This document shows, in pieces, positions 27,731-49,082 of a DNA stretch of 64,000 bases; positions within the stretch are counted from its first letter, which is position 1; each line of letters begins with the position of its first letter. The translations under genes were made by a program, and so were the position numbers. Source of the stretch: Caenorhabditis elegans (taxonomy: Eukaryota > Nematoda > Chromadorea > Rhabditida > Rhabditidae). The notes beneath the pieces are model-generated. The model did no database searches, had not been told where the DNA came from, and was given only the letters and a program-made list of their open reading frames with translations. The stretch is from the NCBI RefSeq assembly GCF_000002985.6, contig NC_003283.11:9982001-10046000 (forward strand). Direction: 5' to 3'.

Positions 27731-30700
27731 GTGTGTAATACACACACATATCGTGTTCCTTGTCTTTCTTCATAGCAGCTCCAATTCATTCATCATTCAG
27801 ACTCTTTTTGATTTTCAATTCTCTTTTTAATTCATTGAATAATCAAATAGAGAACATTCAGAACCACAGACATGAAAAGAATTTAGATTTCAATCTTTGT
27901 CCTTTCCCACTATTTTCCTGTTAGATTAATGGTGTTCTTCGCATGTTTTTCTTATGAATCATCAAAAAACGGCATTGGTTCAATTTTCGAGAATTTTCAT
28001 CGAACTCCCTTCAGATCATAGTTTAGCTGCCGGATATAGAGCCTACTTTTTGCGTCGAAAAATCATTTGCTTCGCATTATTCGTCAAGTAGAGGGGCAAT
28101 AGGGTAGTTAGTATGACGTTTTACTGGAGGAAAATATCTGCAAAATCATCATCATCAACCGGAGTATAAAGTGGAAACAACTATTGAGAAATGTAATATT
28201 CCCACTATAAAAACCAATCAATCTGTACTTCACATTTCAAATTTTAGTGAGCCATTAGCTATTACATAAAAGTTACTGCCTGCCATGATTAGAGGAAACC
28301 TTCTGATACTTATTGTTAGTTTTAGATTTTTAGAAAATAGAAAGGTAGGCATGAAGAATATGTTTCTGAGTCTAACCTAAGAGTCTAAGAGTGAGTTCCA
28401 AGTGTTGTGAAGATTCAAATATAATATGAGTTGTGGTTTTAGTCCATTCTAAGTGTATTTTGACTAAATCTCCACTGACATTATTCAAGTATTAACAGCT
28501 GGTATCTCTTATTCCTTCTATTTTTTCAAGATTTTGTTAGATGGAGAAGAATATTTTGAAATTATTTTCTTTTGCAACATTTGGTTCCAATCTGCTTAAA
28601 ATTTATGAAGTAAGCGAGAAAAAAGGGTATCATGTTTTTTTTGGTAATTCTGAAATGCACACTTTTTAAAATATATTCAAACATTTCCAAATTCAACCAC
28701 AAGACTCTATTATTTGTTCATTCCATTATTTTTTGATTCACATCACCCAATCATCATTTTTTCTTCTGATTCATCAATACAGTTCTCCATTTCCAGAACA
28801 TTCCACAGGAAAGAGGCGGAGCTTATTGTGCCAATAGACCGCCCGTCTTCGTTCCTCCGTGTTCCCCATTTCTCTCAATCGGTCAAACCATTTCCACATG
28901 CCGTTCCTTCCGTCCATTTATCCCGAAATTTCTTCGTTTTTTCATCTCTTTCCTTCTATTTCGGCTCAAAGATCCTTTCATCTGCCTTGTCGGAGATCTC
29001 TTCAAATCCAATGCTCACTCATATCTTCTCGTGCTCCCGAAATCAAAAATGAGAAGCCGATTGCGGGGGTAAAGAGACAGAAAGAGAGATAAAAAGTTGC
29101 TCCCGATACTCAAAATTATTTTTTTTCTCATTTTGTCTTTACCTTTGCACTTTCATTCTGCAAAATCAAGTTTCAAGTTATGTTTTTTTGAAAGTTGATA
29201 AGTTTCGTTTTACTCAAAGTCGCTATCATTTAGTAGAACAGTTATTTGCAATTTTTAGGTATTTATAATGTAGGGTCTCCTTAAACTTCTATATCATTTC
29301 TCGAAAAAAAAAAGACTCCAGAAATGAAAAATCGTGAAACATCAGAGCAATTGTCGTACAGTTGACTAGACTTAAGTGTGAAAAATATAAAGAGACAGTT
29401 GTTTTAGTGAGTTAGCAGAGCTTTAGCGCATAAAATCGGACGTCCCCAGTGTAATTTAAAAAAAGGACGTATGACTAATGACCCAGAAACGAAAGCTCGT
29501 TTGCTTAGTTTTTAAAAGAATGTATATTCAAAATTGTTCAGTTTCTTTGTCTTTTATTCATAGGAACTCTCGAAGTGTTAATGGTGGAGTAGCGCCAGTG
29601 GGGAAATTGTTTTAAAACATGCCGATGGTACCACAATGACCAAATATCATAGTAAAAAAAATTAGAAAATTTTTTAAAATTTTTTTGTGGTTCCATAGGC
29701 ATGTTTTAAAGCAATTTCCCCACTCCACCTTTAACAGAATGAACGCACAAGTTGATTACAGAACTATTTTTGAACAATTTCTCAAATTTATTTTAGTTGA
29801 ACATCTTCTTTTCGCATGAACCGTATTTAATAAATAATCTTATTCACTGAAAATTATTAACAATTGTTCCAGGAAATCACAAATCCTTCATATTTCTTTA
29901 CAAAAACCAACACAGTTCAAATATGTCAAGATCACCATCTCCACCAACCATCACCTTACAGGTAACACAACTTTTATCTAGATAGTTGACAGATGATAAT
30001 ATCCCAATTGAAAATTACCAAATTAGAGTGTGTAATATTAAAATTGTGTATATGAATACAATCCAGTTAGTAGATCCCGTGCTGAAAAACAACAAAGTAT
30101 CGGTAGAATAATTTTATGAGCAAAAAAGGTTTCAAACTTTCTCAGGTCTGATAAAACTTGTCTAATTTCCCAAAAAAAAATTATCGGAGAAACTGATAAC
30201 GTTGATAGGCTTCTTGAAAACGTTTCCAATAACTCCAGTTTTTCCCACTAGGAAAAAGAAACATGATGAGCGTAAGGATTTAGAGTGCTTTCGGTTTTGA
30301 ACTCTCCAGCTGTGTGTGATGTGCTTATGGGAGGGTGGTAAAGAAAGTTCGGGCTCTCAAGTGATGGAATGTCAACACAGATGGGAAAAACAGAGTGAAG
30401 ATGAAGAAGGAATGTTGCGAAAGAAACAATGTTACCATGATTCCACAATGGGACTGTAGAAGAGCTTGCGTACTTTTTTTTTAATTTGATGCTCCTATGT
30501 AGTTATATATTAGTTGAAACACCTGGTGGTGCTCATCTCTGATGATTTGCTTGAAATTCTCTGAAAACGGGAAAACAGTAACCAATTAACATAATTAAAC
30601 TACTAAGTCTTTAAAACCTTCAGCTTCAATGTTACAAAACCATTAGTACATGATAATCTTCCTAATAAGACAAAAAAGATCCAGTTCATCTTCTTATTTT

Positions 30701-33700
30701 TGAAAATTTCAATTGTTTTCATGCCAAAATTTGTATCATTTGACCCTTCCCACCCATTTCGTAATTTTAGTCAACTACTCTGTCACTACCAATTAGCCGT
30801 TTCCCCTCACAATTGATACTGATAACAGATATCAGTACACTGATATCAGCCATTCGGAAACTTTGTCCAAACGGCACGCATTCTCTGAATTCTGTTCTGT
30901 TTACTTTCAAATTTCTGCGAAAAATGTTGTCACTTTCTTTTTTGTGTCCCTTGTTCTCAATTTGAACATCAAAAGACAATACCGCTATGTTTTCTTTTGC
31001 AGAAAAATTGAAAATATAATTGAAGGTTATTTTTAGCATTGTAAAAGTCTAATCAGACTTTTTTAATTTTGAATATAAAAACAATATTATTTTTCCCAAA
31101 AAGCTACCGTTCCCAGTTTTTTCGAAAAATGAGTAAATGAAAACAAATCGAATGTTTTAATCTACAATTTGAAACAACTTATGAAACACCTGAACTATAT
31201 TCAATTTATTTGAATTCACATTCCACCTGTCTTGTTGATCCAATACATTTTTCTTCATTTGCAGCAAGACGAGATGTCCGAATCTGCTGACCACCTTCTC
31301 GATGAATTGAGCAAGAAGCTCGTTGACGAGGTTATCCCAGTTGCACAAGGACAAGTTGGAAACCAGCATTTCGATGAGCCAAAAAGTCAAAAAACGCCAC
31401 CGTCTTCTTTGAATGACTCGTACGCTGAAGAACTACTCGAAGCGAAACTCATCAACACTGATGAGTCCAGCGTAAGTCCTTTTTTGTTCTATTTTACTCC
31501 AACATTTCCAAACGGACAATTTCCTGGTCACCCTCCATTTATTTTCTCTCCATTTCTTCGCTTTCTTTTGCTTTTAAATTCAAACTGACATCCAATCGGT
31601 GGTTTATATTTTATTTTTGCATCCTTGTGTTCCACATCTGTTTTCTGCATCCTCTTCTTGTTGATGCTCTGACCCCTTGCAAAAGCTAATTAGACAAGTG
31701 AAATGCGCGTCGAATCAGCTGGGATTTGAAATGAAAGCTTTAAAATTGGTAGAATAGATATACGGCATTAATTGTTACAGGATATGCCTAGACAATTATA
31801 TCGACCAAAGTTATTTCTTAAGTTATAAAGCAACTTTAGACTATCCCAAAATATATTTCCATCGGGAATTTCAATTTTTTGATCACATTTTTGAAAATTT
31901 AGTTTGACACCGAGAGCAAGAATTGATGCTTAACACAAATCCCTCTTTCATTTCGAAGTTCTTAATAAATCTAAATTGCAAAATAGATTTTATCAGCAAA
32001 TGAGTTTTTTAAATAATAAACAACAAGTGCAAACTTTTCTGCCCATGTCAATCAACAACAAAAAGCTCCTCATGATTCATCAACGCTCAATCAATGTTCA
32101 TTTCTATTTCAAATCTCTTTCCCCTCTGCCCTTTGTCCATGAACCATCACAAGCCATCAAGTCTCTACTACCAGCAGCAATATTATGAAATCAACAGCTC
32201 TCTGTTCTCTCACTGTATCTCTCTCCGCTCCCGTTTTTTTTTGTGTCGAATGTACAACAGCCCAGGGGTGACTAACCCCTCGTCCCCATCAACATTGACC
32301 ACAAAAACATAGGAACAGTTCCTTCCAACATGCACATTTCTTCCCGATTTTACTATTCGAATAATAATAATAACATTTGATAGTGAGTGAGTTGAAAGGA
32401 AAAGTTTAGTTTTCTATTGTGGATATATTTCTGAAGCTATAAATTACAATTCATGAGCAATGCTAGATATTTGTGAGCACCCCTCAATCACTTCATTCAC
32501 CGAACTGACTGGTTTAATTTTCTAAGTATAACTCCTATTCCATGAGGGTCAGCTTATTCAGTTTTTTTGAGAATTGGCACAGGGCATGAGACAGACATAG
32601 GTTGCCTCGAATTCGGAGTTGAAGAAAAAACATTCAGAATGATTGCGTGGCTTCGCATTTTAGAGAAAATTTAAACCGAGAGGTAGCCAAATTTTAATAA
32701 TCCCATTTTAATAGTATTTTTCATAATATTTTTTAAAAGATGACATTTTTATTCCTACCGAGTTTTTCCGTTTATCTTCTGTGGTATTTCGAAATTTTAG
32801 TCTAATAGGAATATTTCAATGCAAAATCCCCATCCTGGCTACTACACCTGTAAATGACAATCAAGCAAGCTTTTCAGCCTACTTTTTAGTTCGAGATACT
32901 GAAGTAGTGGTCTTTAAAAAAACACAATTTCAGCAAATAAATTTACTACTTGATAGCTTTTTTTTTGAAAATTGAGATTTTTGAACCCATCATCTCTTTC
33001 TTTTTTACTGAGATCTCCCCCCGCATAACCTCATGTCGGCTCAACAGAAGTCGATCAGTTCAAATTACGTATCATCGCCATCACATGGATGTTTTTTTCA
33101 AAACCTACTACTGGAATTTTGAAATGTTTTTTGTTTAATTTGAAGATAAAAAGGGCACGGATCATTCTGTAACATCTCTAACGTTTACTCTCCGTTTGAG
33201 ATGTTATTTAATCTCGGTTTCATGCTTCTTTCTGCGTCGCTTGTATTTCAAAATGTTTGCTGTTGGACGAGGTTAGAACAAAAAAAGAAAAAAGAGTTGT
33301 TGTTGTTGCGTGTTCCTTCCCTCCTGGTGCCCTCTTCGTCGTTTTAGTGTCACCCCAACTGATCTGAGGGGAGAAACAGAAATTGAGTAGAAAGTGAGGG
33401 ATAGAGGAGGACCGCCCGCCTTTACACCCCACACACATACATTCGAACTCGTCAACTTTTTTGCTGCTGTTTCCGTTTTGAATGAGACATTCAACTCACA
33501 CCAGAAATCTGTGTTTGTTTCCATGTTTCAGTTTGGGTTTTCGAACTATTCCGGTTTTTTTCCTCGGCATTTTAAGCTGATCGATTTGCAACTATAGGGA
33601 TTATGCAAAATGTCTGATGATTCTAGAGAACATGTTTTCATGAATATGGTTCAGTTAATATTGATCAGATAGTGTTTGCAAATAAATGGAATATGACTAA

Positions 33701-36700
33701 ATTGATTGAGTAACGACTGGTACAGCTGGAGATTTAGAAGTAAAGACTACTGATCAGAAATATTCAGAAAACGTTTTTTAACATCACAACGATCTGAATC
33801 AAATCATGAATCATATTTACATTTCTCATGTGAAATGTTTTTCGTTGAGCCATAAATCTATCTTTCTGTTGGCACCGTTCCAGCTCCATTCATGTTTTAA
33901 GTGTTAAGCCTAGCGAAGCATTGTTGTCGGTTAACTGCTTTTTTTTTGTTTTTTAGTAGTTTGTAGAACCTGAAGCTGTCAGTTAGGAATAGGAAAATGC
34001 ACTTGTCTGCAAAAATGTCAGGAACAAATTTAATAAAAAACTGTAAATGTGTTAGGATAGTTTCTCTCATTTGAGAATTTAATTTAACACATTAAAAAAA
34101 CTGTATTGGAACAAATTACAACCATATGTTGTTTATTCGAACGTGATTTTTCAGTAATTCAGAAAGCTTCATAAACTTAAATTTTCATGTTAAATGGCCA
34201 GTTTTGTTTGATTTGGTATTTGAAGCAAACAAAGTAAATAGGTATCTTGATATCGTTGTGAGACCTAGTTACTATTTGAGAAACAATTTGTACCTCCAAA
34301 GTCACTTTTCAAAAAAAAACCCCCCAATAGTAGTACACTGACTTGTTGCGAGACCAGATTTACCTTTTGGAAATTTTAGAAAATTTATTAGAAACTTTGC
34401 AAGAGCACACGGCAGAATAGTAGCATTTATTTCGTTGAACGTGCATAATTTTAATTTTAATTTTATTACGATTATTACGAACTTTATAACAACTTACCTT
34501 ACCTTCTAAAACCCCCAAACGTATTAGTTAGTGTTACATTCTTATATATAAGGTTTCACCTTCTGTCTGAGGAATAAAAATTATACTGTCATCGGTCCGT
34601 AAACAAGCCATCTTGGCACTGTGCCAGACCAATCACTCAAGGTCAAACCCACTCCTGGCGCTCTTTTCCATGCATTGCGTATACATCGTTCAGAATTTAT
34701 AATAGAGAAGAAAAATGTTTCGAGAATTTTCTACCCTCATTTTGCTATTGTATTATTGTTCGTTATTATTCCAAATTTCAGTATTTCTCATATTCTCATT
34801 AAATTCTAACGTTTAAAATGTTCTTTGTTTGTATTCAACTTTCATTCAAATCTATTATTCAGCTACTACTATTTTTGTTTCTATATGCTATATCTGTGAT
34901 TATCTGAATTTTTATTTCTCAGTTTTTTACTTCTATTTAACTTCTATTTTAACATCTATTTCAAAAAAATCGTAATTTTCATATTCGTATTGTATGCAAA
35001 ATATTTTTCAATTATTCATTTAGAGTGCAATATGGAAAGGTTTATAATAGAGGAAACAACACTAATATGGAAAATACGGTAACTCCTATATGAACCATTT
35101 CCAATTTTGCTTACCTCTCTTAAATTTCTATTAATTATTTTTATTTTTTTTTGCAGTATTTTAATCTTCGATTTTCTGTTCTACAATCTCTTCACTCCTT
35201 CTTCTTTTATATTTCACGCTTCATCATCTTCCACTCCACACTTTAACCTCTTCGCATCACAAATTGAGCTCTTATTTCCTTTTTTGCTTCCGTTCGTGTT
35301 CTTTTTCCAAATATTTCTATTTGCGGGGTTTGCCGGAAGGAAATGACCTCGATTGTTCTCATTTTGACACGCATTTTCCCTACAAAAAAGTACATTGGAA
35401 ACACTTTCAATTAACATTGTTTTTCTTTAAAACTGAATTTCATTTCCTTTCGCTCTTCCTTTTTATCCTATTTATTTTAAAATGCTACACCTTTGCTTAC
35501 TTATGTTTTTCTATTATTTCTATCAGGCCTTGCTGATATTTTTTTCAATTCTATTATTATTTTTCATCTATTCCTATTCTTTTATTTGCTATTCACATGT
35601 AGGTTTCTATATTATGAATTTCCTCACGATAATTTTGGTATTTTCCTAGTTTCAATTCAAAACAATTATCATATTATTTATATATCATATCCTATCACAC
35701 CATGTTCACGTTTTGAAAAAATTATCTTCTCTTATTAAAAATCACTGAAGCTTGTTAGTAAGAAAACTCAAGAGTGTCAATGATAGTAAATTTCTAAAGA
35801 ATGAGAAGTCGAACTTCTAAAAAACTTGATTTTTGGCAAATTTATTCTTGAATTCCTTCTAAAATAATAAGACCTGCCCACTTTCGACCCAATCAGCGTC
35901 AATCAGTTCTCATGTTGGAGGAAATTCAAACTAAAAGATTTTCCCAAAATTGAAAAATCGTGTTCATAAAAGTTGAATTTCGATTATTTTTCTTTTTCTT
36001 TGTCACATTTCTGAATTAAGGGTATTCTAATACAAAAGTTCGATAAATGCTAATCTACCTTTTTTTTATAATAGATGAAATTAACTCTACTAAACTTTTA
36101 GAAACATTAAAACTGGATTTCTTTTCAAGGAAAAATCGGTTGAGAGCATTTGGAATTTTTAGTTTTAAAAATTTTCGGAGTTCATTTAAATTTCAAAGAA
36201 TTTGTTAATTTTCAATGAGTTAATTTTTTATCAGTTCTTATGGAACAAAGAAATATTTCGAATGATTGCTAGAATTCAATGAAAAAACTGTCAAACGCAA
36301 ATTTGATTTCTTGCATCTCTTGCATTTTTAGTTTTCTACCATCCTATTGTTTCATATGCTTAATTTTCTCAAAAATTCTTTTTTGGATTTTTCTGTTCAA
36401 AATTTCGAAATTGCTACAAATTTTAAATTTGAAACTCGCGGTAATTCAAGTCCGCAAACACTCTTCTCCTCGTGTACAGTTTTTGGACAAGTTGTTTATT
36501 GTTTACTTGTTTTTGTTTACTTAATGTTGTTTACATTTAAAAAGAGTAAACAACTTATTCACACTTTCTTTTTTATTTCATTCACTTTATCTGAATATTC
36601 TGCTCTTTTCTTCGTTTTTATTCATTTTCTCCTAATTTTTGGACTCTTCTCAAGCTTTCGCGTAATGTTTCACTCCTATTCTCTATTTTTCCCGGTTCTT

Positions 36701-39700
36701 AACTTTCCTGGCTAGTTATTGAGCAGAATTATTATCTACATAAATTTCTTATATTCTAAATTTTTTTATATTAAGCTCGAAACACTCACTTTTGGTTTTA
36801 TTCCGATATTCGATTATTGATCGCTCTCCTTATGCAGCATCTTCTTCAGCTTCAGAATAGCAATTAGCATAGTAGTTTTTCGAGAAAATTCTAGAAAAGT
36901 CTTGCAGCAATTGCATTGGGAATAGGCGACAGCACTTCTTTCCATTCTCAATAAATAAGCCTTGAGAGCTTTGTTACCCAACAAACATTGTGCTCCCTTA
37001 CTTGTTTTTTTCTATTTTCTAGTGAATCGTATTCTTAGCTCGTATCATCGACCAAAAAAAAAAAAAAAAGCATCAAGAACCAAAAAACAGTCATGCTAGC
37101 CAACGAGTGGACAAAATTATTGGGGAAATCCTCGTGAAGCATCAGAAATGGGCGGGGCGTCTGTTATACTATGTTGTTGTTGTTTCGGTTTTTGAGGTCC
37201 CAAAAATGGGGCGTAACTGTAAACAAGTGGAACAAGTCGTTCTGGAAACGTCCAAAGCTCGCCAGATGGTAATGTCTCAAAGACCAATCATCAATTTTGT
37301 CTGTCCCCTGTATAAAAGGCGGTGCATTTTCATTAGGTTCAACCAAAAATTTCTCTGAAAATTGAACAATTTCCCCCCGCAATTCTCATAATGCTTTCGA
37401 ATCCAAATCTGAAAAGACTGGTCATGAACCAGTGGCGCCCCGCTCAAATTTTGTTACTTGAGCAACCAGGACCATCCAGGCGATTCGTTGAGGTTGGCGT
37501 TTTGATTTAAATTTAGAAGTAGTTTGAAAAATTTGAACCGAAATATTTTCAGTACTAAGTTTACTCATTTTCGAAAACTGTTCTCTTGATGTAAACGTTC
37601 CAAATTTACTTTTTTCAGCTCGCTGGTTGGTCCGAAAATTGAATTGTCGACCCTTTGAGATTAGGTAGAAATTTTGAAAGAAAAATGAATAGAAATCTAG
37701 AGCAGCAAAGTGGCCAGCATCAAAGTAGTTGCCAAATTTTGAATTGAATAGTTAACTTGTAGGAGTTTATAAGTAGTTATTTACAAATCACATCATTTGG
37801 TATCTTCTCGTTTCTAAATTCAAGAATCAGTTCATAGTGCACTAGACCATCAAGTTTTAATAATAACACAATGACGTTTGCACGTCATTCTATTTTGATT
37901 CACCGACTGTCTAGTTGCGAAAACAGATCGAATGCACTACGGTCGTGATAACATAGAGAGTGACAGTCTGAAATTCTATTAGCGCTAGTGAACATATGAT
38001 CTCTTAGCGTTCTCTTATTCAAATAAACAAAGAGAAACAGAAAACAACATCAAAAAAGAGAGTTGAGAAGCTCAAAGACGACTAGCGCACCAATGATCAT
38101 GTTTTTGTTGACACCGTCTCACTTAGATGTCTGCGTCTCTAAGTTGTCTCTTGTGGGAAACCCCCCTTCTCGCCTGTTGACAAGGGGCGGGCACGTGAAG
38201 GCCTTCAGATTGGGGGTAGAATTTTCCTGAATCCACATTTTTTATCATATGAGCTGTGATCGAGGTCGTCGGACAATGTGACTAGTATATAAAGGCTTTT
38301 GCTGTAGTAGATTCACTCATCTTCTTTTATTCATTTCTATTCTTATATTTTCAGAAAAGTTAATACGATCTCTCAAGTAAATATATTTATCTGTAGGATG
38401 TAGCTTCTCTTTAATTTCTAATAAACGAGCGAAACGTCTAGAAACTTTTCATTCAGGCCCACTTTCATTTTTCTTTTTTCCAACTTTCTATAAAATTTTG
38501 TATATCTTCTTCTGAACTCAATAATAATAATTTGTTTATTACAGAATACAACGCACAACAAAATGAGCTTTATGGATAAAGTTAAAGACACCGCCAACAG
38601 CGCCTACGAATCAGTTGAAAATACTGCCGTTGGAGCCAAGGACGGAGTCGTCGGAGCAGTGAGTTTCTGACTTTAATTTCTATATCCAACATTAATTTTC
38701 AGTTCAACACCGTCGGTGAAAAGATTGGTGGAGCCTACGACAGCACCAAGCAATATGCTTCCGACAAAGTCTCTGCTGCCGGAGACTATGCTTCTGAAGC
38801 CGGAAAGAAGGTCGGCGACGCTGAGGATTCTATGATCCAAGGTGCCTACGATGCCAAGGATTCGGCTAAGGAAAGCGCTTCAAACGCTGGAAACAAGATC
38901 TCCAATGCGTTCACATCGTTGAAGGATTCCATCACTGGAGACAACGCTCACAAAACCGGAGAGGCGCTCAATGATAATTACGAATCCGTCAAGGAATCTG
39001 CTTCTGAGGCTGCCGACAGACTCAAGGAGCCAGCACAAAATACCGCTGACAATGCCAAGGATCTTGCCAACCAAACAGGAGAGGAGATGTCTGATGCTTT
39101 CGAGTCTGTCAAGCAACTCACTTCTGACACTGCCGAAAATGCCAAGGAGAATGCCCATGACGCTGCTGACACAGCTAAATCGTACAAAGACAAAGCCGGA
39201 GAGAAGGCTTCGGGAATCCTAGACTCTTTCAAGGCCCATGCTAGTGATGCTAAGGACAGCGTCGAGAACAAGGCTTCAGACGCTTACAACAGTGCCAAGG
39301 ATAAGGCTGGAGATGCTTGGGATTCCACCAAGGATGCTGCCGGAGATGCTAAGGATAAGACCAAGTCTTTCACTGAAAAGGTCGGAGACAAAATCTCGGG
39401 AGCTTATGATTCCGTCAAAGAAAAAGCTTCCGATGTAGCCGACTCTTTCAAGGCCCACTCGACTGACTCAAAGGACAACGTTGAGGTTAGAATATAAATA
39501 TTCCGATCAAAATACTTATTTTTACGTTTTCAGAACAAGGCCGCCGACGCCTACAACACTGCCAAAGATAAGGCTTCCGATGCCTGGGATAAGACCAAGG
39601 ACAAGGCTGGAGAGGCTAAGGACAAAATGGGAGACGCCTGGGACACCACCAAAGACAAAGCCGGTGATGCTTGGGATACCACCAAGGATAAGGCTGGCGA

Positions 39701-42700: not shown

Positions 42701-45700
42701 CAAGGGTATTGCTCATAGTGCCGAGGAAAAGCTCGAGGGAGCTGCTTCTGTTGTTGGAGATGCTGTTCAATACGTCAATGATTCGGCCACTTCAGCTGTC
42801 AGCACCGTTGCTGACTCCGTATCGTCCGCTGTTCACACAGTCGGAGAGAAACTTCACGACGCTGAAGAAGCTGCATCAAATTATATGCACGGAGCACATG
42901 TGAGTTTTATTGATTTCAATTTTACAAGTATCATGCATTCATTTTTATTTCAGAAATCCGCATCGGAAGCTGCCCATGATACTAAGGAAGCAGTTACATC
43001 GAAGGCCGCTGAAGTCGAGGTACGTCTCAAGAATTGTTGCAACTCGTGCTGTTCAATTAGCTGAGCATCACAAGAAAATTTTGTAGCTTGCAAGTAGTGC
43101 TACGTTTTTTTTTCTAAGTGTGTTCATCCTCTATTTAAAATGTTTTCTAAAAATTTTAGTGTGGCCTCATTTTTTCTCCAAATTACTGTTTTTATTTACA
43201 TGTTTCCCTGTCATTCAAGTGTGTTTTTTGTCCTTTGTATGGTTGTCCTTGTCTTACTAACCCTCTATCCTCTATTTTGCAGTGTATTACCTTTTTGTGA
43301 CGTTTTTCTCCGATCTTTCTGCTTGTACTCCTTCGTCCCCCTAGCTTCTGATATTTTCTCATCGTCATCGTCTTCGTCTTGTCAACAGCTTCTTCAGCTA
43401 CTTTCTCTCTGCGTCTACATCGTCTACTACGTTGCTTCACAACCATCACTTCACTTCTAATCTATCCATCTACTTCTACTACTTCTCTCTGTTTTGCTTC
43501 TACACCAACCTCTTATCCACTACCTTCTCATCAGAATGTCGTCAAAAGTTCATTGGGTCAACGCGCGGCTGCTTTGCACGAGAAAAAGAGGGAATTCTTC
43601 TATTCTACTCCTGAGAAGACGTCGACAGTGCCAGTTTTTGTTGAAGATCTAAACGAGCAAACACTGGATGATGTTCCTGATAAAGTGGAAGACATTGTCG
43701 CCGAGGTTGAGGTGGGTAAGGATCAGGAGGATCGGTTCGATATGGCTCGTTTTTCTTAGTTTTCCACTCATCAATACAAAAAACTTACAGTAGAGTTCAC
43801 TTTTGCATCTTGGTATTTTAATATCTTGAGTTGGGTTCCGGCATGATAGATTTATTATTGGGTTGGATTTTTTCGATGTTGGCTCGTTTTTTCTTAAGAA
43901 ACACAAAAAATCTTTACTGGTTTTTAATTTTTAGATGAAACCCATTTTATTTCATATTAGTAGGAAACGTTTTGTTTTTTCGACATTTTCTTGCACGTCT
44001 AGAGTGTGTTAACTGTTGTATTTTAACATTAAATTAAGATTTTTCGATAATTTCCTAACCATTTTAATATCTTCAATATTAATCAACTAAATAGTCTAGT
44101 TTGCTGCCATTCTGGCCTCCCAGCTAACATCCGAAGCGGTAAATGAAGTATGTGGAATTATGCCAACAACTACAGATGATTTCTACACATTTCCATCACC
44201 ATCAACAGCAAAGGTTCAGGTTCCATCCCCAAATGTCTATTATCACACACCTGTTTCATGTTACGTAGAAAAGCCTAATCCACATGTCTTGTCCGCTAAA
44301 TTTCACCACTAAAAAACTAATTTTTCGATTAGAAAAATAATTTGATCATGGAAAAATATGTAATCAATGTTGTCATTTAATACATCTAAAACAACTTTAT
44401 TTCCAACATTTGTCCAATTTTATTGATAATCAGAAATTATTTATATTTTCTTTATTTCAGAAGTCGGCTGCTGATGCTGCGAAGAACACTGCCGATGAAG
44501 CCAAGAAGACAGCCGAACACGTCGAGCAGAAGGTCGATGAGGTATAGAATTGCCTGAAACTAATATTTCAGTGCATACACTGACCTATCAATTTCACAAA
44601 TACACGCTCACAACGCACAGAAAAAAGAAAATTCGAATGCTTGTAAATATTACGGTTGTACATAACTGGTGACCAAAACCCCGTGTGAAATAAAATTTAA
44701 AAAATATGACGGGTTGAGGTCACATATTCTTAGATTTTAAATGTCTTCATTACTTCACAACGCTTTCCGCTGAACAGTTTTCGTGGACACGGAAGACGTC
44801 ATCTTCGTGATCAAAAATGATGAATTTCGCCTTCTATATACATGTATAATGATACGTTTTTCGATAGTTCTTTCAATAATAGCTTTAATGCTCTTGCCTG
44901 ATTTTGTAAATAAAATTCAAAAACTCGTGAAAAGTTATTATTATTAGCCGGATTTTCAGATACACATTTAGAATAAATAGTTAGAAAGACAAATGGAAAT
45001 AAATTGAAAAGAAATACATAAATAAATCTTGAATACAGGCAATTTTAAAAATTTATTATTTAATAGGGTTTATTGTTTTAAATTGAATTTGGAACTTGAA
45101 ATATCAGAACTGATAGTCTGTACCATAAAAATATCATCTACATACATGCGGGAATTGAGACGCAGAGTTTTCAACTAGTGTTAAAAAGACGCACGATTAA
45201 TATCGTGCGACGTCACACTTTTCTGGGAAAAAAATCCCGCAATTGTTGTATATAAAATTAGTAAGAATCTAGGAGCAAATAATTTGAATTCTTATACTTA
45301 CATTCACTCTAAAAACTCAGAATAGCCAAGATATGGGCGGGAACTATTTTCAGTGCAAAATTTTCCGCGAAATACTGCCACCTACAGTAACCCAAGCGTG
45401 ACTTCAATGTTTATATGTTTATTCTTCCCGTTAAAATTATCTGATAATCGAAAATTTCCCTGAATGTGAAGAGAAAATAAAATAAAAAATGAAAAGACAT
45501 TTCTGGAAAAATGTGCTTACAAAATAGGCCCCGCCCACAACTTGTAAGAAAGTATATAATATTTATAAATACGGAAATCTTAAATTTCGAATAAATTAAG
45601 TTAAATTTTCAGAACTTGAAAACTGGAACTCTTCCATCACCGAAAAGTGGAAATACGGACACTCTTCGCTCGACTCGTTCTGAAGGAACCCCTAACAAGA

Positions 45701-45720
45701 GAAGATGCACAATCCTTTAA
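27689..45720 (+). CDS. lea-1: LEA-1, group-3 late embryogenesis abundant protein (multi-isoform)
   Basis: lea-1 is needed for worm tolerance of desiccation, osmotic and heat stress; LEA proteins are disordered, fold into helices on drying and protect proteins and membranes. Shared exons, all phase 0: 31265-31471, 38545-38658, 38703-39485, 39534-40100, 40196-40534, 40677-41048, 41559-42899, 42954-43019, 43535-43711, 44461-44541 and 45613-45720. First exons at 27689, 29923 or 37391 fit in phase, and the internal ATG at 38563 gives the short form. Beginning at 29923 the model is 1397 residues; from 38563 it is 1309. The body is the 11-residue LEA motif (K-DKA-DAWDTTKDKAG) repeated many times, almost all Ala, Lys, Asp, Ser, Glu. 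Exon 43535-43711 is not LEA-like. The C terminus is KRRCTIL, a CaaX box. Real isoform combinations need transcripts; exon boundaries are firm, the locus K08H10.1 is recalled. Confidence 0.93.
29579..29735. repeat. Foldback repeat in a lea-1 intron
   Basis: TTAATGGTGGAGTAGCGCCA-GTGGGGAAATTG followed by TTTTAAAACATGCC recurs inverted at 29685-29735 (GGCATGTTTTAAAGCAATTT, CCCCACTCCACCTTTAA). It is a type of dispersed palindromic repeat common in C. elegans. The two arms are about 50 bases with a loop of about 50. Confidence 0.8.
29923..29961 (+). CDS. lea-1: Candidate first exon B of lea-1
   Basis: ATG plus 12 codons (MSRSPSPPTITLQ) ends at CAG|GTAACA in phase 0 and joins exon 31265 (QDEMSESADHLLDEL) in frame. 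Proline and serine rich. It would give the 1397-residue form. Confidence 0.65.
31265..31471 (+). CDS. lea-1: Acidic N-terminal exon of long lea-1 isoforms
   Basis: TTCATTTGCAG precedes a 69-codon phase-0 exon ending at AGC|GTAAGT. It is not LEA-like: it reads ESADHLLDELSKKLVDEVIP, GNQHFDEPKSQKTPPSSLND and YAEELLEAKLINTDE, with amphipathic helix character. It also contains an in-frame ATG (31274). It joins 38545 across a 7-kb intron, adding NTTHNK before the short-form methionine. Confidence 0.75.
34599..34645 (+). promoter_or_regulatory. NFI-type palindrome flanked by FOXO and NR5-type sites
   Basis: Within 47 bp are GTAAACA (34599-34605, the FOXO/DAF-16 core), TTGGCACTGTGCCAG (34613-34627, matching the NFI consensus TTGGC-N5-GCCA with one outer base off) and TCAAGGTCA (34637-34645, the NR5A/FTZ-F1 monomer site bound by NHR-25-type receptors). 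The stretch is GC-richer than its surroundings, so it may be an enhancer. Confidence 0.4.
36493..36552. promoter_or_regulatory. Cluster of four perfect FOXO (DAF-16) sites
   Basis: TGTTTAC occurs at 36500-36506, 36514-36520 and 36528-36534 and its complement GTAAACA at 36546-36552; a near match TGTTTAT lies at 36493-36499. GTAAACA is the DAF-16 binding element. The cluster is about 2 kb upstream of the short lea-1 start and 840 bp upstream of exon 37391. Confidence 0.6.
36884..36896. promoter_or_regulatory. Perfect three-unit heat-shock element
   Basis: GAAAATTCTAGAA is an exact GAA-nn-TTC-nn-GAA arrangement, the canonical HSF-1 site. It lies about 415 bp upstream of the TATA box at 37311 and 1.4 kb upstream of that at 38286. 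Confidence 0.6.
37219..37318 (+). promoter_or_regulatory. Compact stress-type promoter: FOXO site, HSE, CCAAT, TATA
   Basis: In order: GTAAACA (37219-37225), TTCTGGAAACGTC (37240-37252, two perfect HSE units and a third with one mismatch), CCAAT (37284-37288) and TATAAAAGGC (37311-37320). Spacing predicts initiation near 37340, giving a 5' leader of about 50 bases before the ATG at 37391. Nematode hsp promoters have the same HSE-TATA layout. Confidence 0.6.
37391..37492 (+). CDS. lea-1: Candidate stress-promoter first exon C of lea-1
   Basis: A 34-codon phase-0 exon runs from ATG to GAG|GTTGGC. It joins 38545 in frame. The peptide begins MLSNPNLKRLVMNQWRPAQI and ends PGPSRRFVE. Its first 24 residues have four basic and no acidic residues with interspersed leucines, so a mitochondrial presequence is conceivable. 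Support: correct phase, a donor, and the promoter module directly upstream. I do not know whether an annotated isoform begins here. Confidence 0.6.
38131..38197. promoter_or_regulatory. CTGCGTCTCT motif and E-box upstream of the short lea-1 form
   Basis: CTGCGTCTCT (38131-38140) is a motif over-represented in C. elegans promoters, which I associate with EOR-1 binding from memory. CACGTG (38192-38197) is a bHLH E-box. Both lie within 160 bp of the TATA box at 38286. Confidence 0.35.
38286..38293 (+). promoter_or_regulatory. lea-1: TATA box of the short lea-1 transcript
   Basis: TATATAAA is followed about 30 bases later by a likely start zone, then an untranslated segment near 38355-38374 that ends at CAA|GTAAAT, and the acceptor TTACAG at 38544 in front of the exon bearing the ATG at 38563. 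Confidence 0.55.
44100..44312 (+). CDS. lea-1: Candidate alternative terminal exon of lea-1
   Basis: An AGTCTAG acceptor ends at 44099 and the phase-0 frame stays open for 70 codons to TAA at 44310. The peptide (FAAILASQLTSEAVNEVCGI..., PSPNVYYHTPVSCYVEKPNP) is unlike LEA sequence, with prolines, tyrosines and cysteines. Joining 43711 or 43019 to it keeps frame. It would replace the CaaX ending. A short donor-like GTAAAT inside (after EA) is an alternative reading. Confidence 0.4.
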   Translation, partial: FAAILASQLTSEAVNEVCGIMPTTTDDFYTFPSPSTAKVQVPSPNVYYHTPVSCYVEKPNPHVLSAKFHH

Positions 45721-46358: not shown

Positions 46359-49082
46359 TTACTCAGATTTCTTCCCGTCTTTTGTTTCTCCACGCCGTGT
46401 CGCATTTCGTTGCTGAGCTTCTAGAGTAACTTCCTTATAGGCTGCCAACATAACGTCCCGACACATATCAGACAACTCGCTGACGTCATCAAGAGTGAGC
46501 TGAAAGTTTATTATTTTGTCTTAGTAATTAATCATTTATGTTCAATAGGATACTTTTGAAAAAAAAACCCGGGGGTTTACAATAATCATCAACTCTGAGA
46601 AACAAGTGAATTTTTCCAAAAAAAAACCAAAAAAAATGCGAAAGAAATTTTTTTTTTCAAAAACGAAAATGTTTTTATGCTTGAAACGCTTTTTCGGAAA
46701 ACTTAAATATTTTGACAAAAATTGCACTCCTTTTGTAATTTCGAGTTTGATTTTTTGGAAAAGTATACAATTCAAATGTTTATGAATTTTTCAGTGTATT
46801 AAATTTTTTTGCTCGATTTTTGGTTTTTTGCTCATTTTTTACGAAAAAAAAAGCGAAAAATAATAAAAGTTTAACGTACCCCTTTTGTTGGAATCGCATC
46901 CAGAACTCGAATAACAACTTCTCCATCATTCTTGAAATATCGGCCTGGCTTTGAGTAGAAATCCCGATAGTCTGAGAATACAACTGGAATAATGGGAATC
47001 TGCGCACGAACTGCAATATTGAATGCTCCTTTCTTGAATGGAATGAACCCTCCTTCACGATTTCTTGTTCCTTCCGGAAATACCCAAAGTTTAAGATTTC
47101 TGTTCTTCATTTCAGATGCACAATAATCAACTGAAGCCATCGCACGTTCACGGTTATATCGATCGATGAAGATTGTGTTGGACTGAAAAATTAAAATATT
47201 TGAAAGTGTAACAAGTAATACCGTATTCCCCTTTCCTATAACAACTAGACAACGAGCACCGACTCAATTTCTCTATGGCCACCCATATAAAAAATGTAAA
47301 TTCGTTCCCTTGCAGACAAACAATAGCTTTACGCCGGCGTGTTTGTATTTGTCAAACTCTTTCGAAAATATAACGGAACATTCAGATTTCTAGACACTAG
47401 ACTATGTTTGCGTATGTAAAAAAGCAGTGGGGGACAGAAAGCAACTGACAAAGTAGGCTCCGAGATTGAAGAATGGAACATAGGCAAGAATTCGTTTCAT
47501 CATTACAACACAATTCTTCGGCCAGATTGATGCCATCGATAGAATGTCGAGAGAACTCTGAAAATAATTTTATTATTAGGAAAATATATGTTTTTGAGCT
47601 CCGGAGAGCTCCCGAATTATTTTAAATTCTATTTATTTAGCGTTCCGAAAATTTACTTTCACTTTTTCATTTCTCAATTTCCTTTTCTGATCTTCCTAGC
47701 TTTTTTACAAATCACCACCAACTTGCGCCTTCTCGAATGCTTTTCTGAGTTCTCCCAATCATGTCTAATGAGCTGCTCATCTATACAGTTGGATGAGCAC
47801 ACACACACATACACGAGTCAACGGAGCCAATTGGGCAAGAGCAAAGCTCTAGGAGCTCACTCACACTCCTTTCGATTCCTGATTTCCCCCAGAGGGAGAG
47901 AGAGAGAGAAAAGAAGTCAGGACCTCTCTCTATTTCATTCCTGACTGCTACAACCGACTTCTCATGTTGCATATTGACGCCTTCTGCTTTTACGTGTATA
48001 ACAGACTTGTTTTTTGGACTTTTTATTTTTGAAAAAAAAACAACAATAATTTTAATTCTTCAAAAATCAATTTTTCTCTCCTGAATATTCCGGTAGTAAG
48101 TGTCGATATAAATGCAAATTTCCATTCTCGTTTTTCTTTTTTCTAGAACACCCATCACTCACTCATCATGAAAATGGCCCCCATTTTTTCAAATTCTATT
48201 TTAGTCATACAAAAGTGCATTCTCTCCCACTTCATTTTTATTTTTCTTTGCCACGAAGCCTCAAGAAATGATTAAAATTCTATGCGGGGTGGAGTCAACA
48301 GACCACCATCTCAAATTAGTGATCGTTGAAAGAGAGACATTGAAACATGGCACTGCGGAGCACCAGAAGAAACAAAAAAAAAACGAAGAGAGAAGGCAAT
48401 TTGGATGCGGAAAACTGCCATCATTTAGTACTTTTGTAGCTGGAGAAAAGGGCAGAAGAACTTATTTGAGTTTTTTTTTGTTTCGGTGCCAACGAAATAT
48501 TGATGTTCGGCATTTTACTCAATTTTTTAGCTTTACTGAAAATTTGACCTACCTGATGATTACAAATAACTACAGCCGGACCTTCAACTTGTGTTTTTTC
48601 ATATCCATAGACTGTTGTATGAACACCAGTCCATTTACACCAATAGAAAAACGAGTGAAACACGTAATCAGCACCCTGAAATAATTTTGTTTTATTCTAG
48701 ATTCTATTCCAGATCTATTCTAGATCTTGGAAAAAAAACTGTACAAAATTGCATTTTATTCTCTAAATTTCATGTTCTCGTTTTATCTTTTTTTTCACTG
48801 ATGTTCGGCAGAATGTGTTCCGACATGCATGAAGAACTAACACGTGTTTTCTTTTTTTTTTTTAGATAAAAGTTCATTTTAAATTCCAGTTTCTAAAAAA
48901 ATACTAACCTTCCCATTTAGCCAAGAAGGGATCATTGTAACACAAACTTCCATTCCATGCAATAAAATTGTGAAGTAATAAAACGAAATCCGCATATAGT
49001 AGTGGCATACTGTCGATATGTTATATAAAATGAAGAGAATTGAGAGTAGAAAAAACACGACGATCGACCAGAAGTTCTCCAT
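46359..49082 (-). CDS. acl-2: ACL-2, 1-acylglycerol-3-phosphate acyltransferase
   Basis: Five phase-0 exons in reading order (48909-49082, 48553-48675, 47450-47557, 46880-47182, 46359-46499) give 282 residues, the length I recall for ACL-2 (T06E8.1). The enzyme transfers an acyl chain from acyl-CoA to lysophosphatidic acid to make phosphatidic acid in the ER membrane. The acyltransferase motifs are all present: NHQSSLD with His98 and Asp103 (motif I), FIDRYNRER (motif II), FPEGTRNREGG (motif III) and IPIIPVVFSDY (motif IV). The N terminus carries hydrophobic spans (IVVFFLLSILFILY). Introns are large for this gene size; the 872-bp intron at 47558-48552 has pyrimidine tracts and a GA run (about 47890-47910). 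Confidence 0.95.

Follow-up and report, generated by a model that had tools for sequence, protein, structure and literature searches.

The question raised by this locus is whether the DNA at 37219–37492, upstream of the body of a LEA gene of Caenorhabditis elegans, is a second promoter and first exon of that gene, and which protein would then be made. The window is the whole stretch of DNA analysed (64,000 nucleotides, positions 9,982,001–10,046,000 of a contig read as chromosome V), and all positions are counted from its first letter. The gene is presumably lea-1, a name which rests on an earlier sequence-only reading of the window together with the LEA-type repeats in the translation of the locus. 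The region is tentatively read here, with slightly less than even confidence, as a proximal alternative TATA 5′ end of lea-1, which would give an N-terminally extended, cytosolic or nuclear LEA-1.

Main start and known isoforms of lea-1

The body of lea-1 opens with ATG 38563, in the exon starting at 38545; this exon and the elements before it are as follows.

38185–38293 (+): main lea-1 promoter, with GGGCGG at 38185, CACGTG at 38192, ATTGG at 38209, a heat-shock element (HSE) at 38219–38231 and TATATAAA at 38286
38355–38376 (+): probably a 5′ UTR exon of the main transcript or else a trans-splice site, with a very strong acceptor
38545–38658 (+): lea-1 exon carrying the main ATG (38563), with an open phase-0 stretch of 18 nt ahead of it

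The HSE of this promoter is a perfect three-unit element, while ATTGG represents an inverted CCAAT. In Pfam searches of the LEA-1 body, the segment 38703–39485 (+) passed the cut-off for DUF6781 only and the segment 41550–42896 (+) for YtxH and DUF883, with apolipoprotein models scoring below the cut-off in these segments; no LEA family is found among the matches to either segment up to E = 1. Downstream of lea-1, the ORFs at 46871–48696 (−) resemble by eye what is presumably an acylglycerol-phosphate acyltransferase gene.

The gene is described as giving 21 protein isoforms (PMC8773926), and several LEA-1 forms are made by desiccated dauers according to PMC3853187. In PMC8670023, whose isoform map merges the WS278 and UCSC annotations, isoforms K and N have annotated short N-terminal exons (WS278) upstream of the region that was replaced in the gene, and the authors left these exons in place as likely overlapping the promoter region. 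Alternative upstream starts of lea-1 are therefore already known as a kind; no report of an alternative lea-1 promoter was found among the literature matches listed, and in one set of these matches PMC10802606 is the only one to contain lea-1. The full-length lea-1 deletion measures 15.8 kb (PMC8670023), and a locus of this size ending with the candidate last exon (45720) would thus begin near 30 kb, before the distal exon given below.

31265–31471 (+): distal coding exon A (ATG 31274, MSESADHLL...), with donor GTAAGT and phase 0 to 38545

Exon A, which lies 7 kb upstream of 38545 and scores 26.7 bits over 66 codons from its ATG, is the best upstream candidate for a coding exon. The upstream exons of isoforms K and N (WS278, PMC8670023) are short lea-1 N-terminal exons, as the candidate exon C described in the next section would be, and exon A is a stronger candidate than exon C for the annotated K or N exon.

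Motifs upstream of exon C

The region under study contains the following elements.

37150–37155 (+): GC box GGGCGG ahead of the exon C promoter, from the motif scan
37219–37226 (+): DAF-16-type site GTAAACAA, GTAAACA(A), from a sequence match
37240–37252 (+): HSE-like TTCTGGAAACGTC, matching 8/9 fixed bases
37284–37288 (+): CCAAT, from the motif scan
37311–37318 (+): TATA motif TATAAAAG, with a putative start site near 37341 (TTCAACC) placed by eye
37391–37492 (+): candidate first coding exon C, with 34 open codons, donor GAG/GTTGGC at 37493 and phase 0

The FOXO site, HSE, CCAAT and TATA box that the sequence-only reading had placed before exon C are thus all present, the HSE with one of its nine fixed bases unmatched, and its description of an ATG 72 bases past the TATA motif, opening a 34-codon phase-0 frame able to join 38545, is confirmed by the sequence. 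The core promoter motif stands at a fitting distance from the ATG at 37391, and the spacing among TATA, the possible initiator and this ATG is ordinary.

Taken singly, the motifs are unexceptional. The window holds 5 copies of TATAAAAG against 5.1 expected and 10 of GTAAACA against 10.6 expected, both at background level, while CCAAT occurs in 21% of random 100-mers. HSE matches with at most one mismatch number 83 against 49 expected, above all 100 shuffles and at about one per 770 bases, so that this motif is simply common in the window. The combination is rarer. Among 21 TATAAAAG sites in 264 kb, CCAAT lies within 100 bp upstream of three, GTAAACA of three and an HSE (at most one mismatch) of two, and all three motifs are found only at 37311 (1/21), where about 0.007 sites were expected from 9/26,400 random 100-mers, for motifs chosen post hoc. 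Over the whole genome (100 Mb) the DBE-HSE-TATA pattern in the same order and spacing occurs once, and its reversed control not at all; as the pattern was written from this very instance, the count indicates rarity and not function. The looser pair of an HSE dimer and TATAAAAG is not enriched, occurring at 133 places genome-wide versus 276 for the reversed control. The idea that the full stack is a common genomic arrangement was rejected on these counts.

Elements shared with the main promoter

A private stress promoter had been proposed for exon C. That a TATA promoter serves an alternative first exon of lea-1 is plausible, but the privacy of such a promoter is weakened by the main promoter 1 kb downstream, with its perfect HSE, inverted CCAAT, GGGCGG and TATATAAA, and by a cluster of FOXO-type sites upstream of both.

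36499–36553 (three copies +, one −): FOXO-type 8-mer cluster of TTGTTTAC, four copies in 55 bp, with 14-bp spacing among the first three

The two promoters have a GC box, CCAAT, HSE and TATA in common, the HSE of the main promoter being the better one; among the motifs scanned, GTAAACA is confined to the DNA before exon C and CACGTG to the main promoter. The FOXO-type cluster is the densest feature of its kind: four such 8-mers in 60 bp appeared in none of 200 order-3 Markov sequences of 64 kb, and the 17 such 8-mers in 200 kb of neighbouring genome include no triple in 60 bp. Further candidate control sequence is scattered over 36.5–38.3 kb. PMC6089956 names lea-1 as a target of DAF-16 D/F; a word search of the HSF-1 study PMC4975890 (main text) did not find lea-1. 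In the preferred reading, the exon C promoter would probably respond to the stress signals that act on the main promoter.

Coding potential of exon C

With a worm codon table, exon C scores +8.3 bits in its frame and −12.3 and −8.7 bits in the other two, so that the score is positive in exactly the frame that fits 38545. Within 29,001–38,544 (9.5 kb) there are 22 candidates that run in phase 0 from an ATG to a donor scoring 0 or higher and span 10 codons or more; exon C ranks third among them, below exon A (31274–31471) and a shorter form of exon A. The score of exon C was reached by Markov sequence of the same length in 6, 4 and 5 of 200 runs (orders 1, 2 and 3, respectively). Exon C is 48% GC inside a region of 33% GC, and when its dinucleotides were shuffled 20,000 times, 32% of the shuffles had an open frame, and 6.6% of all shuffles (21% of those with an open frame) also equalled or exceeded its coding score. 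As a GC-rich sequence matched by this share of its shuffles, exon C has therefore modest coding support once local composition is allowed for. Neither exon A nor exon C matches any Pfam family up to E = 1, and the genome holds no peptide similar to that of exon C other than itself up to E = 10.

This composition effect bears on the strongest rival explanation, in which no separate transcript starts here, the stretch is upstream control DNA of the main promoter and exon C is a chance open frame. The background counts of TATAAAAG and GTAAACA, the abundance of HSE-like matches, the lack of enrichment of the looser HSE-TATA pair, the shuffle result and the other candidate control sequence across 36.5–38.3 kb all agree with such a reading, which is nevertheless somewhat improbable; against it stand a TATA motif at a fitting distance, a usable donor, a fitting phase and the rarity of the motif stack.

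Predicted splicing of exon C

For the exon C donor the energy of U1 pairing is −5.5 kcal/mol, a strength equalled or exceeded by 4.1% of the 3,078 GTs in the window and about that of five of the eight other lea-1 donors tested (−5.4 to −6.2), of which two more are stronger (−9.3 and −9.7) and one is weaker (−3.0). Position weights rank the same donor, against random GTs, at the 52nd, 91st and 38th percentiles in three weight sets trained on small self-made intron sets (about 78, 94 and 20 effective introns, respectively), hence near or below the median in two of the three, and in the sets giving the 91st and 38th percentiles it scores under the other lea-1 donors tested. Since these weights disagree, U1 pairing was weighed too, and neither a clearly bad nor a clearly good donor was accepted as its description. 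A fourth splice model, which placed the donor in the top 0.14% of random GTs and scored the 38545 acceptor low, was dropped, as it had been built on about 23 introns with an odd codon table and showed no recognisable splice consensus. The donor of exon A scores 3.26 (98th percentile).

Two other acceptors precede 38545, namely the one at 38355 given above and the following.

37619–37664 (+): possible competing exon start with a strong acceptor, TTTTTTCAG/CTCG, its end at 37664 read by eye

The acceptor at 38545 scores 5.81, against 8.78 at 37619 and 10.86 at 38355; AGs as good as the latter two occur at 0.09 and 0.01 per kb per strand, respectively. Joined to 37619, exon C meets a stop after seven more codons (41 aa in total), and joined to 38355 it meets one after two more codons (36 aa in total), while joined to 38545 it reads on in phase 0 as NTTHNK-MSFMDK, the only one of the three joins that yields a LEA-1 fusion. 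The 37492–38545 join must thus skip two higher-scoring acceptors, which the sequence-only reading leaves unmentioned, although scores do not decide use.

As both of these acceptors lead to stops, an untranslated leader is a serious rival: the TATA promoter would be real, its first exon would be spliced to 37619 or 38355, an upstream ORF of 36–41 codons would result, and ordinary LEA-1 would be made from ATG 38563, so that the promoter would alter the timing of LEA-1 production and not LEA-1 itself. The acceptor scores and the modest coding signal of exon C suit this explanation, which is still considered unlikely. The frame-specific coding score of exon C speaks against it, the GT that would close the 37619 exon scores poorly (−6.23) and leaves that exon with no good donor, and 38355 may serve chiefly for trans-splicing. 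The same stops would also truncate the strongly coding exon A, and at least one upstream exon therefore probably skips them.

Proposed alternative 5′ end of lea-1

In the tentatively preferred reading of 37219–37492 as an alternative 5′ end, the TATA promoter at 37311 would direct RNA synthesis from near 37341, and the first exon, ending at 37492, would be spliced to 38545. The predicted product is LEA-1 with a 40-residue N-terminal extension, of which 34 residues would come from exon C and 6 from the former 5′ UTR, and it would most likely be kept in the cytosol and nucleus. The rare stack, the ordinary TATA-initiator-ATG spacing, the coding score confined to the fitting frame and a donor pairing with U1 about as well as most of the other lea-1 donors tested argue for such a start, as do the annotated upstream exons of isoforms K and N, the 21 isoforms and the description of the gene as a DAF-16 D/F target in the papers cited above. 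The two better acceptors, the share of shuffles that do as well and the middling position weights of the donor count against it. The exon C stretch probably adds a further alternative start to a gene with many known versions. If the 37492–38545 junction exists, it could help to explain the large number of LEA forms made from a single worm gene, and would provide a possibly stress-driven promoter to study.

Possible mitochondrial location

The sequence-only reading had further suggested that exon C encodes a mitochondrial presequence, one locus supplying two compartments through promoter choice. Its statement that no acidic residue occurs in the first 24 is nearly right: the acid-free stretch is real but 23 residues long, residue 24 being Glu. 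The peptide has a net charge of +3, and an RRF near its end could by eye suit a processing site. Its hydrophobic moment is 0.456, and shuffling its residues 5,000 times gives a value at least as high in 29% of cases. Prolines stand at positions 5, 17, 26 and 28, and among 1,715 random ORFs 46 (2.7%) match the peptide in basic charge, lack of acidic residues and amphipathicity. A charge of this size and so common a moment leave the presequence unsupported, and as a presequence the peptide is not distinctive. Because of these properties a mitochondrial form of LEA-1 is very doubtful; if true, it would be a one-gene way to protect two compartments during drying, which the evidence does not favour.

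Mitochondrial group 3 LEA proteins do exist. The appeal to Artemia was correct, as AfrLEA3m is described there (review PMC7649794), and RvLEAM is known from the tardigrade Ramazzottius (PMC4326354). These proteins, of which RvLEAM is assigned to group 3, are like LEA-1 LEA proteins of desiccation-tolerant animals, but they are shown in mitochondria in the cited papers, whereas a mitochondrial form of LEA-1 is hypothetical. A parallel to the proposed gene structure is gsr-1 of C. elegans, where one locus gives a second protein form by first-exon choice (PMC13099523); the gsr-1 first exon is stated there to carry a mitochondrial targeting sequence, while exon C bears no good sign of one.

In the available text of the main lea-1 study (PMC8670023), the string 'mitochond' occurs in two reference titles only and nowhere in the main text, so that a mitochondrial LEA-1 goes unmentioned there. 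Tagged LEA-1 is described in the same paper as diffuse throughout the body, a tissue-level statement which therefore says nothing on organelles either way. Forms with upstream exons should carry this tag if those exons are spliced in, because the upstream arm of the tag also served motif replacements that left the exons intact (PMC8670023).

Candidate last exon

At the other end of the gene lies a further candidate exon.

45613–45720 (+): candidate for the last exon of lea-1, continuing 44461–44541 in phase 0 (join read by eye) and ending in ...NKRRCTIL and a stop

The sequence CTIL after basic residues is a CaaX-like prenylation signal. The notion that lea-1 uses its two ends to direct its products, with a stress-driven first exon taking one LEA-1 form into mitochondria and the last exon, with CTIL after KRR, anchoring another to membranes through prenylation, is extremely improbable. 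None of the literature matches names a prenylated LEA protein in its title, and the available text of PMC8226667 contains both 'LEA protein' and 'CaaX'.
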